This document shows, piece by piece, positions 4,622 to 45,619 of a DNA stretch of 64,000 bases. This stretch comes from Thermomonas sp. Lineage in GTDB: Bacteria > Pseudomonadota > Gammaproteobacteria > Xanthomonadales > Xanthomonadaceae. The notes under the pieces were generated by a model. It was not told the DNA's origin, did not search any database, and was given only the letters and a program-made list of their open reading frames with translations. Numbering within the stretch: position 1 is the stretch's first letter; every line of letters starts with the position of its first letter. Both the position numbers and the translations under genes were made by a program. Where the stretch lies: NCBI RefSeq assembly GCF_019104945.1, contig NZ_JAHRWW010000035.1:1-64000 (forward strand). Direction: 5' to 3'.

Positions 4622-5952
4622 ACGCCCGCTGCAGGCGCAGTGCGCATCCGCTGTGATAGCCACAGACAGAGCAGCAGCGCTGGAATACCCGCCAATGCGG
4701 TGCCAAGGAAGAATAAGCCGTAGCCTTCGGCAAGACTCCGGCCCAGCGCGAGTTGCTCCACCGCCACCCCGGAGAAGCCTTTCAGAAGCTTTCCTAGCAG
4801 TGCGTAGAAGGAACTGAGCAAGGCATATTGCGTCGCGGTATAGCCCACGCTGGTGAGGCTGGACATATAGGCCACCAGCGCGGTTCCGGCAAAGCCGGTG
4901 GCGAAGCCGTCGATGGCCATCGCCACGGCAAACACGCTGTGATCGCCGCTGGCATAGGCCACCCAGGTAAAGGCGGCGTTCGAACCGGGGCCGAGAATGG
5001 CACCGGCGAGCAGGGTTGGCACAAAGCCAAACCGCACCGCACTTATACCCGCTGCCGCAATTCCGAGCATTGATGTTCCCAGCCCGATCGAGGCGCGAAT
5101 TTCACCCACAAATTCCTTACTGATACCGATATCGGCATAAAACGGGTTACTCATCGGCCCCATCACAAAATCCGGCAGCCGATACAGGCTGATCGCCGCC
5201 AGCATCAGTAACGCCCACTTGCCGTGCGTTTTGAAGAAGGCGATAAACGGCCCGGCGATGGCGTCCCACAGCCCGGAGAGCGTCCATAACGGCGCATGCT
5301 CGCGCACCTTGGGGGTTTGTGAGGCAGCAGGTTCACGCGCCAGCAGGAGCACCGCCGCGACGCCTACACCCATTAGCGCCACCATCGCCCAATACGACAG
5401 CGCCCAGCCGATATAGGTGGCGAGGATCAGGATCAGCGCATCGGTGACCAACAGCGCGCTGCGGTAGCCGAACTGGGTACCGGAAGTGAGCAGACCTAGC
5501 TCTTCGGCATCGTCGGCGATCTCGATCCGCCAAGCGTCCACCACAATGTCTTGCGTGGCCGATGCAAATGCAGCCATCAGTGCCAGTGCGCCGAACACCA
5601 CCAGCCCACCCTGCGGCTGCACGATGGCCATCCCCGCCAACCCCACCGCCACGATCAGCTGCGAGAGCAGCATCCAGCCGCGCCGGTGGCCCAGCCGTCC
5701 CAGCAGCGGAACATTGGTTTTATCGATGATGGGCGCCCACAAAAACTTCAGGGTATAGGCCAGCCCCACCCACGACAGAAAACCAATAGCCGATAGCTCG
5801 CTACCGTTTTCGCGCATCCAGTAGCCCATGGTATTGCCAACCAAATACAGCGGCAGCCCGGAGGAAAAACCCAACAGCAGCATCGCCAGTACTTTAGGCC
5901 GCCGTAGCGCACGCACGACATCGGCAAAGGTTTGCTTATGCGCTACGCTCAT
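4609..5952 (-). CDS. ampG: Muropeptide MFS permease (AmpG family)
   Basis: Inner-membrane importer for anhydro-muropeptides. The N-terminal sequence [16 protein letters not shown] with the later WAPIIDK motif is characteristic of AmpG. The 447-residue protein is almost wholly hydrophobic, with about 12 membrane segments, shorter than the 491-residue E. coli protein. Its start overlaps the stop of the ExoIII gene by four bases (ATGA), so the two are probably co-transcribed. Its 3' end overlaps convergent anmK, its pathway partner. Confidence 0.92.
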
Positions 5953-32524: not shown

Positions 32525-33097
32525 ATGGAGAACATCATCGACCAGTGGTTCATACGGGACATCCTGATCCATGAGGCGGCGCTCACGCGCTTGCTGCAGC
32601 GCCACTGGCCGCAACGCGATGAGATACATGATCTACGCCAAGAGGTGTATGCGCGTACCTATGAGGCTGCGGCCAAAGGCTTTCCCAGCAACCCCAAAGC
32701 CTTTTTATTTGCCTGTGCACGCAACTTGATGACCGACCGTCTGCGTCGCAGCAAAGTGGTCTCGATCGAACCAATGGGTGATTTTGAACCTTCGCACGTC
32801 TTATTGGATGAAGTATCACCGGAGCGCTGGTGCGGTGGGCGGCAAGCCTTGCATCACCTATCCGCTGCGTTTGATCAGCTTCCCGACCGTTGTCGCGAGG
32901 TCGTGTGGCTACGCCGAGTAGAAGAACTCTCCCAAAAAGAAGTGGCGCGACGTTTGGGAATTAGTGAAAAAACTGTGGAAAAACATATCGCAAAAGGAAT
33001 GCGTTTGCTCGCCGATGCGCTGTACGGCACGCCCGAGTCTCCTCTTCATTCAGCGCTCTTGGACGAAAGCCGTGATGCCCAACGCCACGCCGACTAA
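32525..33097 (+). CDS. FecI-like ECF sigma factor
   Basis: The 190-residue product has sigma region 2 (EIHDLRQEVYARTYEAA) and a region 4 helix-turn-helix (SQKEVARRLGISEKTVEKHI), as in FecI-type sigma factors. It is followed by an overlapping FecR-like gene and a TonB receptor with an N-terminal signalling domain, a complete cell-surface signalling set. It should switch on the receptor gene when its ligand binds. The predicted mRNA is leaderless. Confidence 0.92.
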   Translation: MENIIDQWFIRDILIHEAALTRLLQRHWPQRDEIHDLRQEVYARTYEAAAKGFPSNPKAFLFACARNLMTDRLRRSKVVSIEPMGDFEPSHVLLDEVSPERWCGGRQALHHLSAAFDQLPDRCREVVWLRRVEELSQKEVARRLGISEKTVEKHIAKGMRLLADALYGTPESPLHSALLDESRDAQRHAD

Positions 33098-34136
33098 TGC
33101 CGCGCCCAAGGACAGCCTGAGCATCGAGCAGGCCGCCGCCGAGTGGCTGGCGCGCCGCAATAGTGGGCATTGGCAAGACGCAGACGAAGCCGCACTGCAG
33201 CTATGGCTGCGGGCGGCTACCCAACACCGCATCGCGTTTCTACGCCTGCAGGCCGCGTGGCAGGAGAGCGGCCGCCTGCAGGCGCTTGCGGCCGGGCAGC
33301 GCGGCAGCGGACCACCGCCGCGCAAACAAGCCGCACCCAGCCTGCGCCGCGACCAAATGCTGCACGCTACATTTCGCCCGCGCGCACGTACTCCCGTAAA
33401 ACGTACCCACCACTACGCAATCGCCGCCGCACTCGCATGCTGCGCGTTCGGTGCAACCGCCATGTGGGAACGCCATCCCCCCGCTACGGTATATGCCTTT
33501 AATACGGCACTAGGGGAAATCCAAACCCAACCGCTGGCCGACGGCTCGCATATCACTCTTGCGAGCAATAGCCGCGTTGACGTCCAGCTTTCGCACCAAG
33601 CGCGCAACATCTCGCTGCATCAGGGCGAGGCGATTTTTGATGTCGCCAAAGACCCACAGCGGCCGTTTAGTGTGGAGGCTGAGGGCTATCACGCCATCGC
33701 GGTGGGCACCCGCTTTTCGGTGCGGCGCGCCCCAGATGAACTGCGTGTTGTCGTCACCGAAGGTACCGTGCGCTTGGAGTCACCCGCCAGCACAGCCTCT
33801 TCAACGCCGTCGGCCCTACTTCCAGCGGGTAGCGTGGCACTGATCCACGGCCGTGATGTCTTGGTGCGCAGTCTGCCGTTAGCGGAAGCCCAGCACCTGC
33901 TCGACTGGAAAAACGGCTTACTGGTCTTCCGTGACGCCACATTGACTGAAGTCGTCACAGAATTTAACCGCTTCAACGCGCGCAAGCTGGTCGTTGCCGA
34001 CGCGGAAGCGGCCAATTTGCAGATTGGCGGTAGTTTTCGCTGGGATAACGAAGAAGGCTTTGCCCGCCTACTGGAAGTTGGGTTCCCAATACGCGCAGAC
34101 TATTCCAGCGCCCAAATCGTGTTGCATTCGCGTTGA
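33075..34136 (+). CDS. FecR-like anti-sigma/sigma regulator
   Basis: The 353-residue inner-membrane protein has an N-terminal cytoplasmic DUF4880-like region (SIEQAAAEWLARRNSG), a membrane segment near residue 115-135, and a periplasmic FecR domain (TQPLADGSHITLASNSRVDV and following). A further C-terminal part resembles an STN-contacting domain. It relays ligand binding by the TonB receptor to the sigma factor. ATG 33075 overlaps the end of the sigma gene by 23 bases; the frame opens earlier, at 32964, but those residues are not FecR-like. Confidence 0.9.
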   Translation: MPNATPTNAAPKDSLSIEQAAAEWLARRNSGHWQDADEAALQLWLRAATQHRIAFLRLQAAWQESGRLQALAAGQRGSGPPPRKQAAPSLRRDQMLHATFRPRARTPVKRTHHYAIAAALACCAFGATAMWERHPPATVYAFNTALGEIQTQPLADGSHITLASNSRVDVQLSHQARNISLHQGEAIFDVAKDPQRPFSVEAEGYHAIAVGTRFSVRRAPDELRVVVTEGTVRLESPASTASSTPSALLPAGSVALIHGRDVLVRSLPLAEAQHLLDWKNGLLVFRDATLTEVVTEFNRFNARKLVVADAEAANLQIGGSFRWDNEEGFARLLEVGFPIRADYSSAQIVLHSR

Positions 34137-34222
34137 ATCAGCCAAACTAGGCGGGATTTTTGCTCTCTGTCCGTCACCAACCATAACAGCGCCAAATCCG
34201 GCGCACCCTGGGGAACCTCCAC

Positions 34223-37200
34223 ATGAAATCGTCACGCCCATACCGCCTGCTCTTGCTGTCGCTGGCCTGTTCCGCTGCCTTGGCGGCCCAGGCACAGACC
34301 GCCGCCCCCATCAATATCGCGGCGGGTGATCTCGCCTCGGCGCTGGATGCCTACGCGCGCCAGTCTGGCACGCAACTGGTGTACCGCGCCGATCAGCTCA
34401 AAGGCGCACATAGCGCAGGCCTTAGCGGCCAAGCGGCCTCGCCGCAGGCACTGGATCATCTACTTAAAGGCAGCGGCTTTGCCGCCAAGCGTGACGCCTC
34501 CGGCGCAGTAATGATCGTTGCCGCAGCATCGGCCCCCAAACCCGCCGCCGCCCGCCCAGCACCGCAGAGCAAACCCGCGCAAGCGGAAGCAGATGCGCCG
34601 GTCACCAATATGCAAGCCATACAGGTCACCGGCTCGCGTATCCCGCGCGCGCAGATCGAAGGCCCGGCGCCGATCACCGTGGTCACCTCGGCGCAGATCC
34701 AAGCCGCTGGTTTCACCACCGTGCCCGACGTGCTGCGCTCGCTCAGCCAAAACAGCGGCACCGTGCAGGGCCAGCAGAACACCACCGGTGCACAGTCCAC
34801 CCCCGGCGCACAGGCAGTGGACCTGCGCGGCCTTGGCCCCAACCACACCTTGGTGCTGATCAACGGTCGCCGCATCGCCGACTTCCCGCTACCGCTGAAC
34901 GGCAAGAGCAACTTCACCGATATCGGTAATATCCCGCTGGGCATGATCGACCGCGTCGAAATCCTCACCGGCAGCGCCTCGGCGGTGTACGGTTCGGACG
35001 CAATGGCCGGTGTGATCAACTTCATTTTGAAGAAATCTACCGACGGTGCCACCATTGATTACCGCTACGGCGACACCCAACACGGCGGCGGACAATCCCA
35101 TAACCTCACCTTCACCTCCGGTTTTGAGCGCGGCGCGTTCACCGGCATCGTGGGCCTTGAGTTCGTCGATCAGCGCCCGCTGTGGGGCTATCAGCGCAAC
35201 ATCCAAGACTCCACATTAGACGGCCCGACAGAAGACAGCCGCCTTCCTACCCTCGTCGCACGTCGCTACGACTGGGATGACGACGTCGCCATGTCGCCTA
35301 ACGGCGACTGCAGCGCACTGGCTGGCCTGAATGGCGGCAGCACCATTCTTGCCAGCGACGGCTACGGCGAGCCCTACTGCGGCAGCGACAGCGTGATCGC
35401 TCAGCGCACGATCAACAACCAGCGCAAAGGCGTCACCGCCTACGGCTCGTTTGAGTACCGTATCAACGACAGCTTGTCGTGGTTTGCAGACGTCCAACTA
35501 GGTCACCAAGAAGTCAAACTAATGACCGGCAACGGCGCCAGCGACGATGTGAGCGACAATATGGGCTGGCAGTTCCAAGACGCCAATGCCACCGGCAGCA
35601 ACCGTGGGCGGTTCTACAACGCCAACACCGGCCATATTGAAGTTTGGCAGCGCCAATTTAGCCCCGAAGAAGTGGGCGGCCTGAAAAACCGAATGAATAG
35701 CACCACCGAAAAGACCATCGCCCTCACAACGGGTTTCAAGGGCTTCTTTGGTGAAGATTGGAATTGGGAAGCTGCATACAACCACTCCCAGTACAAGGCC
35801 ATCGTGAAGATGCCGCGTATCAAAACGGATGTGGCTAACCAGTTTTTCCTCGGCAACAGCCTTGGCTATGACGCCGACGGCTACGCGATCTATGCGTCGG
35901 ATCCGGACCGTCTATTCAAACCGCTCACCGAGGCCGAATTCGCCTCCATGGCGGCCATGTCCACATTCCGCCCCAAGGCCCAAAACGACAACCTCAGCTT
36001 CACTTTCGATAACTCGGCCCTGTTCACCCTACCCGCCGGTGATGCTGGTTTTGCAGGCGTCGTTGAATATGGCCGCCAGACCTACCGCATCAATCCCGAT
36101 CCCCTGGCCCTGACCGCCGACGCCTATTTCGGCCCCCGTTATGGCGATGGTAGCGGTAGCCGCAATCGCTGGAGCGTGGCCTCTGAGCTGCGTATGCCGC
36201 TGCTTAATACGCTGCAGGCCAGCCTTGCTGGGCGCTATGATCAATACAGCTATGGCGGCGAGAACCCCGGCAAATTCACTTACAGCATGGGCCTTGAATG
36301 GCGCCCGCTGGACACCTTGCTTGTGCGGGGCTCCTACGGCACCGGCTTCCGTGCACCCGACATGCACTATCTGTTCGCGGGTAACGACTACTACCGCAAA
36401 ACATCAACGGACTACTTCACCTGCCGCAGCGACGACCCCAGCATGAGCGATGGCGATTGCTATGACGACGGCAGCTGGGATATCAGCACCCGCGATGTTT
36501 ACAGCGGCAACCGCAAGCTGGACGTGGAAACCAGCACGTCGGCTTCCGTTGGGTTTGTATGGTCGCCCAGCGCCAGCTTCGACCTTGCGGTGGATTACTA
36601 TCGCATCAAAATCGCCAACCAAGTTCAAACCCAAGACCGTGAGTTGCTGCGGATTACCGAAGCCAACTGCCGCTTAGGTACTACCGACTCCGGCGCCAGT
36701 GTGGACATCAACTCGCCGACATGTCAGGACGCTATCGCCCGTGTTGTTCGTGATAGCAGCGGCGATATCACCAGCGTGCTATTTGGGCCCATCAATATCG
36801 CCAACGAGCAAACCTCTGGCCTTGATGTCACCGCGAACTACCGCCTACAAACTGCCCAAGCAGGTAATTTCCGCTTCAGCGGCAACTACACATGGGTGCA
36901 AAAGCATAGCTTCCAACAGTTCCCCGGTGACCCCACCCAAGACATGTTGGACTACAGCTCCTACAGCCCAGCGCTACCGCGCGTGAAGTCCAATCTGGGC
37001 GTGAGCTGGGACAAGGATGCATGGGGCGCCAGCCTGTTCGGCAACTACCTAGGCCGCGTACCCAACTACGACGACGATGCGTGGACCGAAGCTACCTGGC
37101 GCCTTAACGGCACCGCCCGTTATGACATCAGCAGCCATTTCCGCGTAGCGCTGACCGTCAACAACCTGCTCGACAAGATGCCGCCGAAAGACGCAACTTG

Positions 37201-37297
37201 GTCTGCGTATCCGTACTACGACACCTCGTGGTTCGATTCGATCGGCCGCAGCTACTTTATCCAGCTCACCTACAAATTCGGCGGCGCACCGCTGTAA
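34223..37297 (+). CDS. TonB-dependent receptor with STN signalling domain
   Basis: The 1024-residue outer-membrane receptor has a signal peptide (about 1-25) and a secretin/TonB N-terminal (STN) domain (about 30-100). After a Pro/Ala linker come the plug domain (starting AIQVTGSRIPRAQIEG) and a 22-strand barrel ending in YFIQLTYKFGGAPL. GGGGAA precedes the ATG. STN domains contact FecR proteins, so this is the ligand sensor for the adjacent sigma pathway. The ligand is unknown; proximity to an exported cyanophycinase suggests a cyanophycin-derived peptide. Confidence 0.92.
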   Translation: MKSSRPYRLLLLSLACSAALAAQAQTAAPINIAAGDLASALDAYARQSGTQLVYRADQLKGAHSAGLSGQAASPQALDHLLKGSGFAAKRDASGAVMIVAAASAPKPAAARPAPQSKPAQAEADAPVTNMQAIQVTGSRIPRAQIEGPAPITVVTSAQIQAAGFTTVPDVLRSLSQNSGTVQGQQNTTGAQSTPGAQAVDLRGLGPNHTLVLINGRRIADFPLPLNGKSNFTDIGNIPLGMIDRVEILTGSASAVYGSDAMAGVINFILKKSTDGATIDYRYGDTQHGGGQSHNLTFTSGFERGAFTGIVGLEFVDQRPLWGYQRNIQDSTLDGPTEDSRLPTLVARRYDWDDDVAMSPNGDCSALAGLNGGSTILASDGYGEPYCGSDSVIAQRTINNQRKGVTAYGSFEYRINDSLSWFADVQLGHQEVKLMTGNGASDDVSDNMGWQFQDANATGSNRGRFYNANTGHIEVWQRQFSPEEVGGLKNRMNSTTEKTIALTTGFKGFFGEDWNWEAAYNHSQYKAIVKMPRIKTDVANQFFLGNSLGYDADGYAIYASDPDRLFKPLTEAEFASMAAMSTFRPKAQNDNLSFTFDNSALFTLPAGDAGFAGVVEYGRQTYRINPDPLALTADAYFGPRYGDGSGSRNRWSVASELRMPLLNTLQASLAGRYDQYSYGGENPGKFTYSMGLEWRPLDTLLVRGSYGTGFRAPDMHYLFAGNDYYRKTSTDYFTCRSDDPSMSDGDCYDDGSWDISTRDVYSGNRKLDVETSTSASVGFVWSPSASFDLAVDYYRIKIANQVQTQDRELLRITEANCRLGTTDSGASVDINSPTCQDAIARVVRDSSGDITSVLFGPINIANEQTSGLDVTANYRLQTAQAGNFRFSGNYTWVQKHSFQQFPGDPTQDMLDYSSYSPALPRVKSNLGVSWDKDAWGASLFGNYLGRVPNYDDDAWTEATWRLNGTARYDISSHFRVALTVNNLLDKMPPKDATWSAYPYYDTSWFDSIGRSYFIQLTYKFGGAPL

Positions 37298-37320
37298 TTT
37301 CACTGCACCTGCTGTACCTA

Positions 37321-37347
37321 ACGCCCCGGTTTTCCGGGGCGTTTTTT
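37321..37347 (+). terminator. Intrinsic terminator after the TonB receptor
   Basis: A perfect nine-base stem ACGCCCCGG / CCGGGGCGT with a TTTT loop is followed by a T-run (37342-37347). It separates the receptor from the convergent polysaccharide operon. Confidence 0.92.
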
Positions 37348-37352
37348 ATGCG

Positions 37353-38312
37353 CTATTCCTTCGGTACCGGCTCACCCACGAAGCGGCGATAGCCTTGGTA
37401 ATGGTGAAACACAAAGCCAGCAAATGCCGCATTGCCGTGATAGGCCGCTTCAACCTTCTTGGCCTCGGTTTCGAATGCCGCTTCGCTCATGCCATAAAAG
37501 CTCAACTTGGCAGGCTCACCTTTGTTGAACTCAAGGCCGATGACCACTTTCTTTCCCACCTGTTTTGCGTACTGCATCTCGGCCTGTGCGTGCGACAAAA
37601 TACTGTCGCGGCCTTCGGCAAAATTGCGGTAATCCATCAGCGCCACATAATCTGTCATGCCGGTCACATGTTCGGCCACTGTCTTGCGCTTGCCGTGCCA
37701 CTCTAGGGTAATGCCATCCCACCAAAACGGCATCGCCGGGCCAATTAACAGCGTTTGCCCCGATTTGCGCTTGGCCTCCATCATCGCCGCCGTGAGCTCC
37801 AAAAAGCCTCTCAGCAAGCGCGGCCGCGTGGCGTCCTCCCACTCGTCCAGCAAATGCGGTTCGATATCATAGTTGATGCCATCAAAACGCTGCTCTGGTG
37901 CGGCGGCCGCGTTGTAATCCAATACACGCTGGGTCATCGCATTTGCGGTGCGACGATATTTTGGTAACACATAGCGCTCGGTGTGCAGATACCAAGAGCC
38001 CAGCAGCGCATAGGTTTGAATGCCACGCTTGTGCGCCGCGCTAATGAAGTCGCGGTACAGCTGTGGCTGGCTTTCGATCAGGTTTCGCTTCTCAAATGCA
38101 TCGGCGTACAGATAGATGATATTGATACCCTTGCGCTGCATAAACGTCAGTGCTTCTTCTGCAACCTGCTTGGATTCCAACATCGCATAAGAGTCTTCCT
38201 CCCACGTCCACACCGCACGCGACGGTGCGTGCGCCTGCTGCGCGCGCGCCGTACCCAGCAGCAGAAAGAGCGCTAAAACAATTCCACCGAAGTGGCCTTT
38301 GCACATGCTCAC
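37353..38312 (-). CDS. Secreted GH18-like TIM-barrel protein
   Basis: The 319-residue product has a signal peptide ending near residue 24 (TARAQ). The segment DGINYDIE (144-151) resembles the DGxDxDxE catalytic strand of GH18 glycosidases, with Asn in place of the first inner Asp. Surrounding blocks (NIIYLYADAF, IQTYALLGSWYL, YVALMDYRN) fit a TIM barrel. It could trim or modify the polysaccharide made by this operon, as PgaB does for PNAG. The GTG start overlaps the stop of the LtaS-like gene (GTGA) and has GGAGG upstream. Family assignment is tentative. Confidence 0.68.
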   Translation of the reverse strand: MSMCKGHFGGIVLALFLLLGTARAQQAHAPSRAVWTWEEDSYAMLESKQVAEEALTFMQRKGINIIYLYADAFEKRNLIESQPQLYRDFISAAHKRGIQTYALLGSWYLHTERYVLPKYRRTANAMTQRVLDYNAAAAPEQRFDGINYDIEPHLLDEWEDATRPRLLRGFLELTAAMMEAKRKSGQTLLIGPAMPFWWDGITLEWHGKRKTVAEHVTGMTDYVALMDYRNFAEGRDSILSHAQAEMQYAKQVGKKVVIGLEFNKGEPAKLSFYGMSEAAFETEAKKVEAAYHGNAAFAGFVFHHYQGYRRFVGEPVPKE

Positions 38313-40714
38313 TGCACTGCCTCCGCGATATCCAATGGAATGTGATAACGGCCCCGACCAAACGATTTTCCGCTATCCGGGTCCGATGCCAGCACTGAAA
38401 CAAAATAGCGCCCGGGTGAGAGCGACGGCAAGGTGATGGAGAACAGCACCTCGCGCCGTTCGTGTGCATTCAACTGAATCGAAGTGCCGTAGCCTTCACC
38501 CAGTTCGCGCCCATCTCCTCCGGTCAAAACAGCCAAGGGCGTGAAGATGCGGGACGCCGCGTTATCGCCGTTGACATACGTCGCCACGATCTGTGCGGCA
38601 TTGCGTCCCGTTCGCTCTAATTTCACTTCTTCTAGCGCAAGCCCAGGAGGCTGCGCCGCCAACGCTAAGCTATCCACTGAAGGCGGGGCTTCCACCGCAC
38701 TATTGAACGCCACCAGCGGCGGCGTGGCGCCGTCGGGTGAGAGCGCGAGGCGCTGCAAGAAACTGGCGTTGTCGGCTTGGTAGCGCACAAAGTGCTGTTG
38801 CACTTTGTCTAGTGTGCTTCGATCGTCCACTGCGGAAGCGCGAATACCATCACCAAGTTCAAACAGCTGGCCATCGTGCAAGAACCAACGGCCATCCACA
38901 AAATCCGGCACGCTGGTTTTGGTTTGCTTCAGTACAAAACTATGTGTGCTTTGAAAATGCGTGGCCATATCCAAGCCCGTACCTACCCACGTCACGCGCT
39001 CTGGGCGTTTCAGCCCATAGGTATGCGCCAGCAGCGCCAGTAGCGAGGGCGTGACATCCACATGCGACGACACCGCCTTGATCCGCGCAGGCTTCTTCAA
39101 CAAAGACGAGTAGATCAGCAGCGGCACGTGATAGCGCTCGATATGCGTATCCTGCGGAAGCTCCGCGAGGCGGTGATCGCCAGTAACAATAAAGATCGTA
39201 TTGGGATACCACGCGGTCTTTTTGACAGATTCAAAATAGCGCCGCAGTTGGTCATCGGTATAGAGAATCGCGCTATAAATATCCACATGAGCGCGGTATT
39301 CAAACTTCCGAATCGCCGGAATACCGAGTGCATCGAGCCGCTGCTCGACGCGCTGTTTGTACTCGGCCTGCCCCGGAAACTCATAAGCCGTGTGCATGCT
39401 GATGGTTTGTATCCCTTGCACGAACGGCGTCTGCTGGTTCGCGTTGTCGGCCAGCACCCGTGACACCAGCTCACGATCGGGATAGCCCCATTCGCTAAAT
39501 GGGTTCTTTTGGTAGCCGCTACCAAAATTGCGTAGATCCACAATTTTGTTGATCTCTTGCAATTGAAGATAGCCGCGTTCGTTATCGAACTTGCTGTCGG
39601 TGCCTAAATAAAAGGTGCTGTGGTAGCCCTGCCGGTGCAGCACGTTGAACAGCCCCACATGCGCTGGCATTTTTGGCCCAAGTTCGGCGAACCCTTGCTC
39701 GGCCACAGGTAACGAGCCGAGTAGCGAGGGCAGTACGCCAAACGTGCGCCCTTGGTTGGCCATGAAGTTGTCGAAATACAAACTCTGTCCGGCCAACTGA
39801 TCTAAAAAGGGTGTAAAGCTGCCAAGTGTCGCGTCGGGTCCGGAGAAGGAGCGCCCCAATCCCTCCACCACGATCAACACGATATTCGGTGGCTGCCCAT
39901 TTTGGGTGGCTGAAAAATACGGCCCCAGCGTATCGGGCGTTGTTTCTTCATGCCAAAAGGGATAGCGCGGGTCGAGCTGTTTTTCTGTCGCAGTCTTTGC
40001 ATCACTGCTGCTTAACGCTGGAGATGGTGCGGCAATAGTTGCCGGCGCACTTCGCCAATAGCGCAGCGTATCTGCAACAAAGAAAGCCCCTTTACTGGTG
40101 GCAACAAGGCGCGCCGACTCGCTGCGCAGCCCCTGCACGCCCACGGCCGCTGGCAGCAGCCAAGCGCCAATCCCGGCGGCCAACAAAACACCCAGCACCC
40201 ACGCAGATGCGACCACCTTCCACTTGTTCCAATAGATACCGGCCCATAGCAGTACCAGCGGCAGCACGAGATTGAGCCATGCACCAATGCCAAACCCATC
40301 TTCGGCAGCGCCCCCTACTGTTGTGCGAATTTCATCAAGGCGATAGCCAAATAAATCCGCCCCAAGCGCAACCCGCGCGGTAAGGAAGTACTGCTCCAAT
40401 GCAAATTCCAGCGCAATAAACAGCGACCATAGCGCGGCTAAAAGCCCCAGCCGCAACGTCTGTTTTTGCACGCGCAATAACGGCCAGCTCAGCAAAAAAA
40501 GTAGTGGCAGCGCGCGCAGCAAAAATAGCAGCTGGTTGCCCACCGCCAACGCGAGCACGGAGAACCCGCCGTCGCTGCCTGTTAGCGCCCGGCCCGCAGC
40601 TACTCCAGCAAACAGCAATTGCGCCAGCAGCAGCGCGGGGAGCGCCGCAAGAAACCGGGAAGCCGCAGAATCGTGCCCGCTAGGTGCGGCGGCGGGCGCA
40701 TTTGTGCGTCTCAC
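38309..40714 (-). CDS. LtaS-like alkaline-phosphatase-superfamily phosphotransferase
   Basis: The 801-residue inner-membrane protein has about five membrane segments in its first 190 residues, then a periplasmic sulfatase/LTA-synthase catalytic domain. Visible features are the metal-binding Glu in IVVEGLGRS (near 284), the candidate nucleophile Thr in NQGRTFG (near 324) and the later TGDHRL metal site. A C-terminal region (about 670-801) looks like a beta-sandwich. Such enzymes transfer phosphoglycerol or phosphoethanolamine to glycans. It overlaps the YaiO gene by four bases. Confidence 0.85.
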   Translation of the reverse strand: MRRTNAPAAAPSGHDSAASRFLAALPALLLAQLLFAGVAAGRALTGSDGGFSVLALAVGNQLLFLLRALPLLFLLSWPLLRVQKQTLRLGLLAALWSLFIALEFALEQYFLTARVALGADLFGYRLDEIRTTVGGAAEDGFGIGAWLNLVLPLVLLWAGIYWNKWKVVASAWVLGVLLAAGIGAWLLPAAVGVQGLRSESARLVATSKGAFFVADTLRYWRSAPATIAAPSPALSSSDAKTATEKQLDPRYPFWHEETTPDTLGPYFSATQNGQPPNIVLIVVEGLGRSFSGPDATLGSFTPFLDQLAGQSLYFDNFMANQGRTFGVLPSLLGSLPVAEQGFAELGPKMPAHVGLFNVLHRQGYHSTFYLGTDSKFDNERGYLQLQEINKIVDLRNFGSGYQKNPFSEWGYPDRELVSRVLADNANQQTPFVQGIQTISMHTAYEFPGQAEYKQRVEQRLDALGIPAIRKFEYRAHVDIYSAILYTDDQLRRYFESVKKTAWYPNTIFIVTGDHRLAELPQDTHIERYHVPLLIYSSLLKKPARIKAVSSHVDVTPSLLALLAHTYGLKRPERVTWVGTGLDMATHFQSTHSFVLKQTKTSVPDFVDGRWFLHDGQLFELGDGIRASAVDDRSTLDKVQQHFVRYQADNASFLQRLALSPDGATPPLVAFNSAVEAPPSVDSLALAAQPPGLALEEVKLERTGRNAAQIVATYVNGDNAASRIFTPLAVLTGGDGRELGEGYGTSIQLNAHERREVLFSITLPSLSPGRYFVSVLASDPDSGKSFGRGRYHIPLDIAEAVQ

Positions 40715-42003
40715 CAGCGTCGATACAGGGCGATGGAAATATCGTGCTCGTTGAAGCCATCGGCGTCATCAGAATAGCCCGCGCCCAGCTTTACGCCCCA
40801 ATTCGGCTTGAAGTAACGCACCCAATTCACACCGAAGGAAGCGTTGCTATTGCGTACAAGTGCGCCAAGCCGATCCAAGTCCGAACTGCGTCCGGTGCTG
40901 GCACTAACTTCAATGTAATCATCGGCATTGCCGCGATAGTAATTGCGCGCCACGCCGCGATGGCTCCAACTTCCTGAGCCAACACCGGGAACGTGCTGGA
41001 GCTTGTAACGGAAATACCAATTGCCTGTGTAGCGCCCCACACCGATGCCATAAAACTCGGTGTCGGAGCTATACCGCAAGTGATCGATGCTGGCAGACAC
41101 CTCCCAGCCGCTACCCACACCTTGAAAGACTTCCACGCGCCACGCATCACGCGGCAAAATTCCGCTGGATGGGCCCACCTGATAGCGCACATTGGCATAG
41201 GCGCGTGGCCACAAACTGACATAGCCATCCAGCGCCCACGCGCTATTGCTGCGCTTGAAGTTGTTGGCGTTGAGCATTTCCAAAGCCAGTGAGCCGCGTG
41301 CAAATTTGCGTCGTAGCGATACATTGGCGTCCAACCAACGGTCACGGCCTCCGCTAAAGCCGGTGCTATCCAGCCCCGCGCGTAACTGCCACGTGTAACC
41401 GTCGGCGAGAAATGCATCCGGTTGCGCCAGTTGAATGATCGTGCTGTCGTTCAAGCTTGCTACCTGCGCCGCGTCTGCGCCATGCGCTCCTGCTGCAGCG
41501 AAATCAGCGCGCGCCTGCTCCATTTGCCCGGCCGAGCGCCAAGCGCGGCCACGTGCAATTAGCGCTTCACTGCTGTCTGGTACTAACGCGATCCAATGGC
41601 CATACGCCTCAGCCGCCTGTTGCGGGCGATTACTCCATAAGTACATATCACCCAGCGCCGACCAAGCATCGGCATAATCAGGCTTGCGGGTCGTTACCGC
41701 ACGCATATCCGTCTCGGCTTCTGTGTAGCGCCCCATCCACGCGAACGTGCGCCCTCGCGCCAACAGCACGTCGCTGTTCTCAGGCGAGGTTTGCAGCATT
41801 GCGTTGTACACACTAATGGCCTGCTCACGCTGCGTCGGGTCACCTGATGTGGCCAACGTTCGCGCTTGGCGAAGCTGGTCTTCATACCCCAACGCTGGCG
41901 CTGGCGTTGCCGCTTGCACCACTTCTTGTACTGGAGTAGGCGCCGTTTGGACACCCCCCGCCACTCCTGCCGCTTGTAGCGCAGCCAACAACAGCAAACT
42001 CAT
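40711..42003 (-). CDS. YaiO family outer-membrane beta-barrel with TPR region
   Basis: The 430-residue product has a signal peptide, a TPR-rich part (about 60-190, with repeats such as ALLARGRTFAWMGRYTEAE) and a C-terminal barrel ending in SIALYRRW, with the terminal aromatic typical of outer-membrane proteins. YaiO and PgaA-type proteins combine TPR and barrel to pass a polysaccharide out. GAAGGAAG precedes ATG 42003; the frame opens upstream within the glycosyltransferase gene. In E. coli yaiO neighbours the glycosyltransferase gene yaiP, a parallel to this pair. Confidence 0.86.
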   Translation of the reverse strand: MSLLLLAALQAAGVAGGVQTAPTPVQEVVQAATPAPALGYEDQLRQARTLATSGDPTQREQAISVYNAMLQTSPENSDVLLARGRTFAWMGRYTEAETDMRAVTTRKPDYADAWSALGDMYLWSNRPQQAAEAYGHWIALVPDSSEALIARGRAWRSAGQMEQARADFAAAGAHGADAAQVASLNDSTIIQLAQPDAFLADGYTWQLRAGLDSTGFSGGRDRWLDANVSLRRKFARGSLALEMLNANNFKRSNSAWALDGYVSLWPRAYANVRYQVGPSSGILPRDAWRVEVFQGVGSGWEVSASIDHLRYSSDTEFYGIGVGRYTGNWYFRYKLQHVPGVGSGSWSHRGVARNYYRGNADDYIEVSASTGRSSDLDRLGALVRNSNASFGVNWVRYFKPNWGVKLGAGYSDDADGFNEHDISIALYRRW

Positions 42004-42029
42004 GGTCGCTTCCTTCAAATTAGCGTTGA

Positions 42030-43511
42030 TTAACGAACAGCCGGAGAGGTCACCGATGCCGGTGCCTGCGGTTCGTGCTCTTGTTCTTGCCAATGCGCAT
42101 TGCGCCGCACATGCCCCCATTTTGAACGACGGCCCAACTTAATCAGCCAACGACCTAGCCCAATCACGCGGAATAGTGAGGTCATCTGGCGGTATCCGAA
42201 GTTTTCTAAAATGGCGACGGAAAGCAGCTTGAGCTGCTGCCCCGGGCGCGGATACAGGTGGAAGGAAATTTCTTCCAGCATCATCGCATTGACCGATAGC
42301 AAAATCCCCAAGCCTACCGCTGCGAACAAGAAGGCAAAGAATGCCTCCGTCGAGAGTAGCCCGGTGAGCCCTAAAATAATCACTGCCGCATAGCCAAACA
42401 CTTCCACCAGTGGCCCAAGGCATTCAAACAACAGCATAAACGGGTATGCCAGCCAGCCCACAGCGCCACCGTTTCGGCGGAACATCAGCCCAAAATTGCC
42501 GAACAAACTTTCCGCAAGACCCTGCTGCCAACGCACGCGCTGGCTATACAGTGAACGCAAATCCGAAGGCACCTCCGTCCAGCAAATTGGGTCGGGAACA
42601 AACGAAATTCGGTAAGGGCGTTTTTCTTTGCGCATCTGCTTATGCAGACGCACCACCATCTCCATATCCTCACCGACCAAGTCGCTTTTATAACCGCCCG
42701 CGGCGATAACGCGTTCTTTATAGAACACCCCAAATGCGCCTGAGATAATCAGCAGTGCGTTGATTGGCGACCAGCCCAACCGGCCGAACAAAAAGGCACG
42801 CAGGTATTCCACGGTTTGCACCAGCGGCAACACCTTCTTGGGTAAATCGATTTCAGACAACAGCCCGTCTTTGACCTTACAGCCGTTGACCACGCGAATC
42901 ACCCCACCAGTGGCAATCATGCTGGAATCTTCGAGGAAGGGCTGCACCACGCGTGCCAAGCTATCTTGTTGCAAGATGCAATCGGCATCGACGACACAAA
43001 ACAGCGGATAGCGTGCGGTATTGACCCCCGCATTGAGTGCGTCGGCCTTACCGCCATTTTGCTTATCGACAAGCCGCACCCGCCCGCCATTCGGTGAAGC
43101 AAAAATGCGATTGACCGGCTTCGTTGGAAGGCGGCTACGGTAGGCTTCTGGAAATTCGACAAGCCCAAACTCCGCCACCACAGTCTCAAGCGTTTTGTCG
43201 GTAGAACCATCGTTGACCACTACGATCTCGAAATTGGGATACCCCAAGCGCAGCAGCGAACGGATCGTTGTAATGATGGTGCGCTCTTCGTTATGCGCGG
43301 GCACCAAAATACTGACCGGCGGCTGGTATTCGGCAAAGCTTTTGATACGAAAGCCAGCGCCGTGCTCGCGCGTGTAGCGCAAGATCGCGAACATCGAAAT
43401 GAAGTTCAGCGCGAGATACACCACGTTGATCAGAATGAAGTAGAAAAGAAACCCCCACTGCAACATTTCAAGCGTTGAGGTGACTTCTGGGGAAAAGAAA
43501 AACTCTTTCAT
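42030..43511 (-). CDS. Processive family 2 glycosyltransferase (PgaC/YaiP-like)
   Basis: The 493-residue inner-membrane synthase has N-terminal membrane segment(s), a GT2 domain with DGS (near 101), DAD (175-177), GED (280-282) and QxxRW (QRVRW, 324-328), and a cluster of C-terminal membrane segments. These are the motifs of processive beta-glycan synthases such as PgaC and cellulose synthase, which polymerise and translocate together. The sugar cannot be told from sequence. The ATG overlaps the stop of the HEAT gene by four bases. No PilZ domain is seen. Confidence 0.92.
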   Translation of the reverse strand: MKEFFFSPEVTSTLEMLQWGFLFYFILINVVYLALNFISMFAILRYTREHGAGFRIKSFAEYQPPVSILVPAHNEERTIITTIRSLLRLGYPNFEIVVVNDGSTDKTLETVVAEFGLVEFPEAYRSRLPTKPVNRIFASPNGGRVRLVDKQNGGKADALNAGVNTARYPLFCVVDADCILQQDSLARVVQPFLEDSSMIATGGVIRVVNGCKVKDGLLSEIDLPKKVLPLVQTVEYLRAFLFGRLGWSPINALLIISGAFGVFYKERVIAAGGYKSDLVGEDMEMVVRLHKQMRKEKRPYRISFVPDPICWTEVPSDLRSLYSQRVRWQQGLAESLFGNFGLMFRRNGGAVGWLAYPFMLLFECLGPLVEVFGYAAVIILGLTGLLSTEAFFAFLFAAVGLGILLSVNAMMLEEISFHLYPRPGQQLKLLSVAILENFGYRQMTSLFRVIGLGRWLIKLGRRSKWGHVRRNAHWQEQEHEPQAPASVTSPAVR

Positions 43512-44572
43512 GACGCATCTCCCAGCGCACGCTCGGCAATGACTTGGGTCAAAATATCGCGCGCGTATTTGTCTTCGCGGCTGTCGCGCACTTGCTCCAG
43601 TCGGCTTGCATCATTTCCAAACAGGTGCTGCACAGCCTGCGCCGTGCGGTAACGCACCCACCATTGGGTATCGGCCAATAACGGCATCAGCACGGAGGTA
43701 TCGGACTCTTTCCCCAAACGGCCTAACGCGGCGGCGGCGTGCATGCGTACATGCCAGCGCTCATGGTGCAGCAAGGGCCGCACTTTATCGAGATCATTCG
43801 CGTCCACCATCACTTGTAAGCAGGTGGACACCAAATGCTCATCGTGTGTCTCGGCCAATAGTTTGCGTATCACCGGCGCTGCCGCATCCGGGCTAACACC
43901 TGCCAAGAAGCGCACCAAGCGCGGCGCTACTTCGTCATTTGCACGCAGCGTTGCCGCACCCAGTTCATTCTTGACGGTCTCGGGTTCCGCCTCGTTGAGC
44001 ATTTGTGCAATACCGCCATCCACCCAGTCGTGGCGTTCGACGATCTGCGGCACCACACGCTGCACGGCGCGCTCAGCATTGATACGCATCAATGCTCTAG
44101 CTGCGGTGATGGAAACAATAGGACTGCGGTCATTGATCAGGCCTGCCAGCCGATCAAAGCTCGACGTGCTGCGCAAATGCCCTAACGCCACCACCGCCAT
44201 CACGCGGTGGCTAAAGCTGCCGGACGCCGTCATTTTTTCGAGCTTCGGTGCAAGATTCACCAGCGATGCCACCTGCAACATGCCCGGGTTATCGGTGCCT
44301 ACAGGCGTTTCATGCAGCTCGTTCCACACTTCCACAAAACCACTCATATCCTTACTGGTGAGGGCAGGCACCTCCGCCGGAGGGGACTGCATCGCATCGA
44401 TCAAAACCTTCCGCCAGAGCGCAACTGCGCGCAGGTGATTTTGCTCGCGCTGCTTGCCCACTTGGCGGATCACCAAGATGGCGATAAATAGGATGAGGGA
44501 CGCGAGCGTCACCCCGATCCCCACCCAAATCGCAAACACGATTTGTGGATTTCCGTATAACCAGGGATTCAT
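43508..44572 (-). CDS. Membrane-anchored HEAT-repeat protein
   Basis: The 354-residue product starts with one membrane segment (about 10-35) followed by a basic stretch, placing the rest in the cytoplasm. Residues about 115-340 are helical HEAT-like repeats, for example VMAVVALGHLRSTSSFDRL and HVRMHAAAALGRLGKESD. It probably scaffolds or regulates the neighbouring glycosyltransferase. ATG 44572 has AAGGA seven bases upstream. It ends in a four-base overlap with the glycosyltransferase gene. No enzymatic motif is visible. Confidence 0.82.
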   Translation of the reverse strand: MNPWLYGNPQIVFAIWVGIGVTLASLILFIAILVIRQVGKQREQNHLRAVALWRKVLIDAMQSPPAEVPALTSKDMSGFVEVWNELHETPVGTDNPGMLQVASLVNLAPKLEKMTASGSFSHRVMAVVALGHLRSTSSFDRLAGLINDRSPIVSITAARALMRINAERAVQRVVPQIVERHDWVDGGIAQMLNEAEPETVKNELGAATLRANDEVAPRLVRFLAGVSPDAAAPVIRKLLAETHDEHLVSTCLQVMVDANDLDKVRPLLHHERWHVRMHAAAALGRLGKESDTSVLMPLLADTQWWVRYRTAQAVQHLFGNDASRLEQVRDSREDKYARDILTQVIAERALGDAS

Positions 44573-44614
44573 TGTCATATCCTTTTGCGCACGATCTGTC
44601 TGCGCAGTCAATAC

Positions 44615-45619
44615 TTAGGGCGCGTCGGTTGCGGCCGACGTAGCAGGCTCTTGGAAGCCTTTTACCCGCGCCAACGCTTGTTTTGCTTCTTCATTTTCTG
44701 GAGCGATTTCTAACAGTTTGGAAAATGCTTTCTCCGCTTCCGCCCAACGCGCCTGCCGGTAATACGCATTCCCCAGCCCTTCTTGAACGGAGGCATCGCC
44801 CGGCTTCTCTTGGCTCAACGCGGCGAACTGGCGCTCGGCCTGCTCCGGCTTGTCTTGCGCGAGATCGCAATAAGCAAGGCCCACGCGTGAATCGAAATCT
44901 CCGGGGGCTAGCGCCAGCGCATCGCCAAACGCATCGCGCGCCTCATCAATTTTCGACATGCGATATAAATTCCAGCCTTTCACGCGCAGCACGCGCGGAG
45001 TCTGTCGCTCAATGGTGGCCAATAGCTCAAGGCTCTTCTCAAACTCACCTGCGCGGAACAACTTCTTTGCCGCTCGCTCCGTGGCTAAATCTGTATCGCT
45101 GGTGGCATTTGTCCCGGCATAGGTTTGCGTTTGTACTTGGGCATGCTCGGCCAGATAGCGCTGCACGTTTTTCGCCCGGTGAAGACCCAGATAACAGTGG
45201 ATATACGCCGTGCCGTCGGCATCCAGTGCGGCTTGCGCGGCGGCTTTGGAGTTCTTGCTGTAGTTGTTGCCAAACTTTTGCCCCAAGATACTGCCCATGG
45301 GGAAGTTCTCGACCCGCATTCCGTATTGGCTCGCCAGTTTGCGCTCACGCTCCAGCAGCACCTTTTCATAGGGCACATTGGGTTCGAGCAGGCTGATGAT
45401 GGTGGTCACGCCGCGCTTTTTTAGCTCGGAAAAATCCGCCTCTACTGGGTAAGGCCCAAACAGCACACCGTTGACGGCGCTCTCCGCACGCTCGGCCCGC
45501 CACGGCTGCACGAACACGCTTGCCGGGTGCAACAGCACCCAAACGCCGAATGAGAAGCCCAATAGCCCCAACAGCAAAAGTCCTACCCAAAGACGTTTTT
45601 TTGACTGAATCTTGAACAC
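44615..45619 (-). CDS. Membrane-anchored Cx5R phosphatase-like domain with TPR repeats
   Basis: The 334-residue product has a KKR-flanked membrane segment (11-30) predicting a periplasmic C-terminus. Residues about 45-160 resemble a dual-specificity/tyrosine phosphatase with the P-loop HCYLGLHR (Cys142, Arg148). The usual general-acid Asp is not evident near NFPMGS. TPR repeats fill about 185-320. GTG 45619 is chosen because AGGGGGAG precedes it; the frame extends upstream but would bury the membrane segment. First gene of the six-gene operon. A lipid- or sugar-phosphate substrate is possible. Confidence 0.8.
   Translation of the reverse strand: MFKIQSKKRLWVGLLLLGLLGFSFGVWVLLHPASVFVQPWRAERAESAVNGVLFGPYPVEADFSELKKRGVTTIISLLEPNVPYEKVLLERERKLASQYGMRVENFPMGSILGQKFGNNYSKNSKAAAQAALDADGTAYIHCYLGLHRAKNVQRYLAEHAQVQTQTYAGTNATSDTDLATERAAKKLFRAGEFEKSLELLATIERQTPRVLRVKGWNLYRMSKIDEARDAFGDALALAPGDFDSRVGLAYCDLAQDKPEQAERQFAALSQEKPGDASVQEGLGNAYYRQARWAEAEKAFSKLLEIAPENEEAKQALARVKGFQEPATSAATDAP

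Follow-up and report, generated by a model that had tools for sequence, protein, structure and literature searches.

A run of six minus-strand genes in a 64,000-nucleotide stretch of Thermomonas sp. DNA (contig NZ_JAHRWW010000035.1, positions 1 to 64,000; the window) raises the question of whether they encode a polysaccharide secretion system and how this would relate to the systems already named. Only a few types of biofilm polysaccharide system are known, and a class in which the synthase is paired with a HEAT-repeat partner would extend them by one that is controlled in its own way. An earlier note on this DNA had described the six genes as joined by 4-bp overlaps or short gaps and had named their domains, and inspection of the open reading frames (ORFs) together with Pfam and NCBIfam searches bore this out at 37353-45619. 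As read from the genes, one operon combines a membrane glycosyltransferase, an inner-membrane partner, a TPR protein with an outer-membrane barrel and a periplasmic modifying enzyme. We therefore consider it likely that the block is a synthase-dependent exopolysaccharide system, analogous to Pga and Bcs, with phospho-decoration, trimming and export, the operon being real, conserved and probably functional.

Central to this reading are the predicted synthase and its neighbour. The family 2 glycosyltransferase (GT2; 42030..43511, minus strand) is a predicted processive synthase that scores above the cut-off for Pfam Glycos_transf_2 (86.9 bits) and carries DGS, DAD, GED and QRVRW motifs; 110 of 118 GT2s have DAD, GED and Q[RK]xRW together. 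It shares a 4-bp overlap with the gene for a HEAT-repeat protein (43508..44572, minus strand; Pfam HEAT_2, 82 bits, above cut-off), for which a topology estimate gave one N-terminal transmembrane helix followed by four positive residues within 15, so the HEAT repeats are predicted to lie inside, in the cytoplasm. A defence system was also considered and rejected, as PADLOC matched the HEAT protein only, weakly (three models, best 3.6e-7), with no match for the other five proteins.

The best NCBIfam model for the GT2 was PgaC/IcaA (E 9e-41), which brings in a competing explanation, namely that the block is a diverged Pga system making plain poly-N-acetylglucosamine, where the HEAT protein replaces PgaD and the GH18-like protein described below replaces the hydrolase half of PgaB. 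This is possible, yet we find it rather doubtful, since the GT2 reached 140.2 bits against an equivalog cut-off of 422.3, and the outer-membrane protein fared no better against the corresponding exporter. The latter, a TPR plus YaiO beta-barrel protein (40711..42003, minus strand), is the predicted polymer exit pore and the sole outer-membrane candidate among the six predicted proteins. It belongs to the YaiO family instead (Pfam YaiO, 93.6 bits, plus TPRs; TIGR04390, 122.5 bits, cut-off 32), and against the PgaA-type export porin it gave a TPR match alone, at 23.9 bits for a cut-off of 366.65.

The last gene of the block encodes a secreted GH18-like TIM-barrel (37353..38306, or from GTG 38312, minus strand), a predicted polymer-trimming glycosidase. 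The protein had no Pfam or NCBIfam match, and neither it nor two distant homologues matched Pfam even at E 1, but a homologue-based AlphaFold model was confident (mean pLDDT 92.9). Foldseek placed Cwp19 and GH18-type chitinases and endoglycosidases at the top of its list (TM 0.4-0.6, with large rmsd) and other TIM-barrels lower, while D147, E149, W195, M224, Y226 and R227 were invariant in all 38 aligned sequences. The model and D147/E149 thus give a TIM-barrel with the D-x-E motif of GH18, although the window protein has MxYR where GH18 has MxYD. Such a D-x-E pair is typical of enzymes usually acting on 2-acetamido sugars, which speaks for a Pga-type product. Conversely, the GH18-like profile found a single sequence relative in the PDB, 10yv (E 5e-23), and no PgaB chain at E 0.01. 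The 10yv entry is titled 'Putative GH97 from Cellulomonas fimi', a name at odds with the GH18-like motif and fold seen here.

Between the YaiO and GH18-like genes lies that of an LtaS-type membrane enzyme of the AlkP superfamily (38309..40714, minus strand), predicted to transfer a phospho-substituent; it overlaps the YaiO gene by 4 bp and also the GH18-like gene if the latter starts at GTG 38312, and the remaining intergenic gaps in the block are 42 and 26 bp. The protein scored 119.4 bits against Pfam Sulfatase, above cut-off, its nearest structures were VP1736 (3lxq), LtaS and LtaP, and its model (pLDDT 81.7) showed an extra C-terminal beta-rich part. It has the AlkP/sulfatase fold with the Thr and the E, D and H positions of LtaS-type enzymes, which we take to be the catalytic residue and the metal ligands, respectively, and T324, E284, H441, D513 and H514 were conserved in 20/20 orthologues from five-gene loci in our alignment (A3). 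This alignment had three outliers: L113 keeps the catalytic and metal residues, L121 is cut, and L135 has D at 284.

By score, the enzyme lies far under the equivalog cut-offs of LtaS (36.7 versus 970 bits), phosphoglycerol transferase I (33.9 versus 572) and OpgB, the membrane-oligosaccharide glycerophosphotransferase (18.9 versus 574). Decoration of osmoregulated periplasmic glucans by OpgB-like enzymes is established, and the last two matches, faint as they are, would fit a product that is a periplasmic or membrane-bound glycan, with the LtaS-type enzyme decorating envelope glucans as OpgB does. We think this unlikely, as every one of the 22 five-gene loci has a YaiO barrel with TPRs, and the Bacillota, Actinomycetota and archaea in the sample have none. 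The LtaS-like gene itself is likewise found in all 22 of these loci, a further argument against a plain Pga product.

The remaining gene, at the upstream end of the block (44615..45619, minus strand), encodes a membrane-anchored DSP-type phosphatase domain with C-terminal TPRs and is an optional accessory. Pfam phosphatase matches were all sub-threshold and a DSP profile found no match in the PDB at E 0.01, but the HCx5R loop (HCYLGLHR) is present, and was found in 13/13 homologues with C142 and R148 invariant. A positive N-terminus precedes its only helix, so by the positive-inside rule the bulk of the protein is predicted to be outside, in the periplasm. The full-length gene occurs in 6/22 five-gene loci (window, L040, L042, L046, L047 and L049), and where it is missing, a search for remnants of it (E up to 10) matched the TPR part only and nowhere the DSP part.

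We then assessed conservation of the gene order, a search that the earlier note had proposed, naming a lack of co-occurrence as the outcome that would count against it. The order HEAT-GT2-YaiO-LtaS-GH18 was kept in 22/22 distinct fetched loci whose GT2 shows 61% identity or more (L039-L047, L049-L054, L064-L069, with L068 from Stenotrophomonas koreensis DSM 17805, and the window), so that such an outcome did not come about for five of the six genes, the exception being the DSP/TPR gene. These 22 loci formed one clade with an SH-aLRT of 100 in a GT2 tree (117 rows, LG+G4, quick search), which left out L055, being the same locus as L066, and L171-L173, which have a different, HEAT-less GT2 under the length limit. 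Beside this other GT2, L171-L173 contain ORFs of ~690-700 amino acids (L171:9067-9627, L172:9305-9790 and L173:9628-10035) with an N-part that looks TolC-like by eye and a GH18-like C-part (HLDIEPH), possibly a different type of polysaccharide locus.

Of 348 genomes searched in the order, 19 carry the GT2 (E up to 1e-40), and 11 of those 19, but no other genome, carry a close relative of the GH18-like protein (E up to 1e-10). In each of these 11 genomes the two genes were on the same contig, 3.7-3.9 kb apart (Fisher p 4e-16 for co-occurrence, not corrected for kinship). A further genome of the 19 (G339, locus L062) has a diverged GH18-like homologue that this threshold missed and a profile search detected. 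In a sample of 323 genomes of the class (GT2 profile A1, E up to 1e-90; GH18-like profile A2, E up to 1e-15) we detected the GT2 in 15 and a GH18-like match in eight, with an overlap of four (p 2e-4); two of the four, the window genome and G042, were already known, and in another, G942, both genes were on one contig, about 3.4 kb apart.

Within the window's genus the block was present in 9/25 genomes, its own included. Pseudouridine-synthase-like and ArfB-like genes (both named by eye) and an acyltransferase gene flank it in genus relatives and, rearranged, in Stenotrophomonas, and the closest relatives additionally share a TonB-receptor-like flanking set. The window's flanking genes were not seen around the block in five loci of the family we label f12 or in three loci from gammaproteobacterial metagenome-assembled genomes. 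A mobile island is not favoured for the window's family, since the same flanking genes surround the block in relatives, and the patchy presence fits loss; this suits a chromosomal locus long resident in the family and frequently lost better than a recently acquired island.

Beyond the five-gene clade, the HEAT and GT2 genes form a much wider pair. A GT2 profile scan of named genomes matched at least 591 stretches, of which the best 80 loci, from many phyla, were taken, so the sample was chosen through the GT2. The profiles used to call presence were made from the sampled loci themselves, so that the calls lean towards those loci; genes were called by simple ORF scripts, and the duplicates L056/L085 and L084/L178 remain counted in the totals of 117 and 121. 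With this scope, a HEAT gene lay within 9 kb of the GT2 in 115/121 loci and within 300 bp in 109/121. In the 117 loci of the tree set, the genes found within 9 kb of the GT2 were HEAT (114), YaiO (81), a receiver domain (76), GH18-like (41), LtaS-like (26) and DSP (13). The three tree-set loci without HEAT were L082, L087 and L120, and in the latter two the GT2 is less than 300 bp from the end of the stretch. This candidate synthase class was sampled in Pseudomonadota, Nitrospirota, Acidobacteriota, Bacteroidota, Bacillota, Actinomycetota, Deinococcota and two archaeal assemblies.

YaiO was detected in 28/33 named Pseudomonadota and in none of six Bacillota, six Actinomycetota, one Chloroflexota and two archaea, a distribution whose fit to that expected for an outer-membrane exporter is good, if not perfect. 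On the GT2 tree the fewest presence changes needed were ten for the GH18-like gene, four for the LtaS-like gene and nine for DSP, indicating repeated gain or loss, in either direction. By these presence calls, the LtaS-like and GH18-like genes are add-ons to a much wider HEAT-GT2 module, which YaiO has joined in many diderms. Mixed sets were also seen, with GH18-YaiO-HEAT-GT2-DSP in L062 and L167, and YaiO-LtaS-DSP-HEAT-GT2 in L183, although in the latter the GT2 is interrupted by a stop and the LtaS match, at 5e-12, is weak. A polysaccharide-deacetylase-like protein (L076:4037-6007) scored 22.7 bits against PF01522, for a cut-off of 23.1, in a scan of L076 only, and its homologues adjoin the GT2 in L075, L076 and L082 (Nitrospira), L081, L135 and L141. 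Their position beside some relatives is another point in favour of a diverged Pga system, which is offset by the lack of any N-deacetylase match among the six window proteins in Pfam or NCBIfam.

Two further observations concern this wider family. A 711-amino-acid protein that looks like a glycosidase by eye, with no Pfam match at E 1 (L106:6239-8374), has homologues in L104, L109, L110, L114, L115, L124, L134 and L142, and recurs next to HEAT-GT2 in Clostridium as well as in other bacteria. Proteins related to the GT2 at 31-43% identity are also encoded on 14 plasmids (H1-H14), haloarchaeal ones included, where they are annotated merely as glycosyltransferase or hypothetical protein, one having no listed gene.

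Taken together, we propose the following sequence of steps, in an order that is itself conjectural. The membrane GT2 would polymerise a sugar from a common nucleotide sugar and move the chain through the inner membrane. The HEAT protein, with its one-helix anchor and cytoplasmic solenoid, may be a regulatory or scaffold subunit of the GT2, taking the role that PgaD or a PilZ domain has elsewhere. On the periplasmic side, the LtaS-type enzyme would put a phospho-substituent on the chain, most likely glycerol phosphate from phosphatidylglycerol, and the GH18-like enzyme would cut or trim it, before the TPR-YaiO protein captures the chain and releases it through the outer membrane. Some genomes would supply a DSP-fold phosphatase in the periplasm as well. 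The GH18-type D-x-E pair and the deacetylase-like gene beside some relatives suggest an N-acetylhexosamine backbone. The earlier note's view of a processive-type GT2, a cytoplasmic HEAT protein, a TPR/barrel, an LtaS-type enzyme and a secreted hydrolase-like protein as a conserved exopolysaccharide-like operon is thus supported at the level of predicted roles.

Several observations weigh against this reading, or against parts of it. The top family match of the GT2, to PgaC, is so far below cut-off that the family score does not fix the sugar. In the LtaS-like protein, the position of the histidine in the LtaP motif FHTND is L370 in the window, and S, N, A or other residues in relatives, so that the donor site differs from that of LtaS-type enzymes, and the sequence does not discriminate between phosphoglycerol transfer, phosphoethanolamine transfer and hydrolysis. 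In L044 (about 5100-5600) the end of the LtaS-like gene is shifted to a different reading frame from the rest and continues into that of the GH18-like gene, which looks like a frameshift or an error in the sequence. YaiO was missing within 9 kb of the GT2 in a number of diderms, namely four Massilia, one Lysobacter, three Gemmatimonadota and two Deinococcota, as well as one Myxococcota, one Spirochaetota, 1/4 Acidobacteriota, 1/2 Elusimicrobiota and one Ignavibacteriota (short contig). The add-on genes can also stand apart, as G1000 has response regulator-HEAT-GT2 on one contig and YaiO, LtaS-like and GH18-like genes on another. Likewise, 4/8 class genomes with a GH18-like profile match lack the GT2 at E 1e-90 (G940, G988, G1027 and G1045, with matches of 2e-25 to 1e-15), three of these matches being in a different locus type. 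Finally, the correlation of GT2 and HEAT distances was weak (r 0.25, permutation maximum 0.21) and came from a faulty extraction, and was not used.

The most interesting part of the system would be the HEAT-GT2 pair, often near a receiver-domain gene, which by its distribution is a wide module and for which we found no name. The receiver of L070 is a single-domain response regulator (PF00072, 132 amino acids), and no receiver lay within 9 kb in any of the 22 five-gene loci. We tentatively suggest that HEAT-GT2 could be an unnamed, pan-bacterial two-subunit glycan synthase, in which synthesis would be switched by a single-domain response regulator docking on the HEAT solenoid (in the window's clade, by something else) and not by cyclic di-GMP (c-di-GMP) on a PilZ or PgaD-type partner, and that the product of the window's clade could be a polysaccharide resembling teichoic acid, decorated with glycerol phosphate and made by a Gram-negative. 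With an LtaS-type enzyme beside the synthase, the locus is a concrete case in which to ask whether Gram-negatives decorate a secreted matrix polymer with glycerol phosphate. The GH18-like family, whose window member has no match in Pfam or NCBIfam, is a candidate for a new kind of enzyme that degrades the matrix.

Downstream of the block, a terminator-like hairpin (37320..37343; stem AACGCCCCGG/CCGGGGCGTT, with a T-run on the plus strand) lies between the cluster and a converging TonB-receptor-like gene. This gene belongs to a sigma factor, FecR-like and TonB-dependent receptor-like set (named by eye) at window 32525-37297 that converges on the cluster, and homologues of the set adjoin the cluster in the closest relatives.

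How does this locus compare with known systems? By description, the nearest named operon we met is xagABC(D) of Xanthomonas, an analogy drawn from the parts of the papers available to us. That operon, related to biofilm, includes xagB, a gene for a putative glycosyltransferase (PMC3609779, PMC3826837), and the increased biofilm formation of an rpfG mutant depends on xagA and xagB (PMC3609779). XagABC has been linked with protection from oxidative damage and was not identified in X. albilineans or X. fastidiosa (PMC3542200). The block might therefore be the same system, already known genetically in a related genus. We judge this very unlikely, because the descriptions, in the portions seen, name no HEAT, LtaS or GH18 member (PMC3609779, PMC3826837), the word HEAT occurring in the latter just in a note on an effector, and because no Xanthomonas record was among the best 80 of at least 591 GT2 matches in a scan that used two peptide patterns. 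In Stutzerimonas stutzeri MJL19, two exopolysaccharide (EPS) clusters and an LtaS-family gene affecting c-di-GMP are described, with no link to HEAT-GT2 in the text seen (PMC12125118), and the portion of PMC8249394 consulted had nothing on a HEAT-GT2 cluster. The literature on xagABC and S. stutzeri A1501 EPS yielded no description of this cluster, nor did we find a HEAT/YaiO/GT2 system described in the open literature, a coverage mostly outside subscription papers and preprints.

At the level of architecture, the closer parallels are PgaABCD/HmsHFRS/IcaADBC and Bcs. Pga-type systems have a membrane GT2 synthase, a small membrane partner, a TPR-barrel exporter and a secreted hydrolase-type domain, and the window has the same types of part. 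It differs in having a HEAT protein instead of PgaD, in its additional LtaS-type enzyme, and in a GT2 and exporter that score below the family cut-offs; a deacetylase-like gene stands beside six wider relatives only. Against Bcs, no PilZ, BcsB or BcsG family was found among the six proteins at E 0.001, and the GT2 reached 42.7 bits with CelA, for a cut-off of 699. The Pga-type logic put forward in the earlier note thus holds in that the block would work like Pga and Bcs, but it fails the family score tests of both. The LtaS-type enzyme shares with LtaS, LtaP and OpgB the fold, an N-terminal membrane part and the Thr and metal-ligand positions, and departs from them in its sub-cut-off scores, its extra C-terminal part and the residue at the LtaP histidine. 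The note had also taken this enzyme to be foreign to Bcs, which stands in so far as it is LtaS-type. However, an AlkP-superfamily transferase as such is not foreign there, since BcsG of the E. coli cellulose system is an AlkP-superfamily enzyme, and Bcs with BcsG resembles the window in its synthase-dependent export, its TPR-barrel and an AlkP-superfamily enzyme putting phosphate groups on the polymer. The two differ in the LtaS type of the window enzyme and in a hydrolase that is GH18-like and not GH8, and with BcsG as precedent the LtaS-like decorator would be a variation rather than something unheard of.

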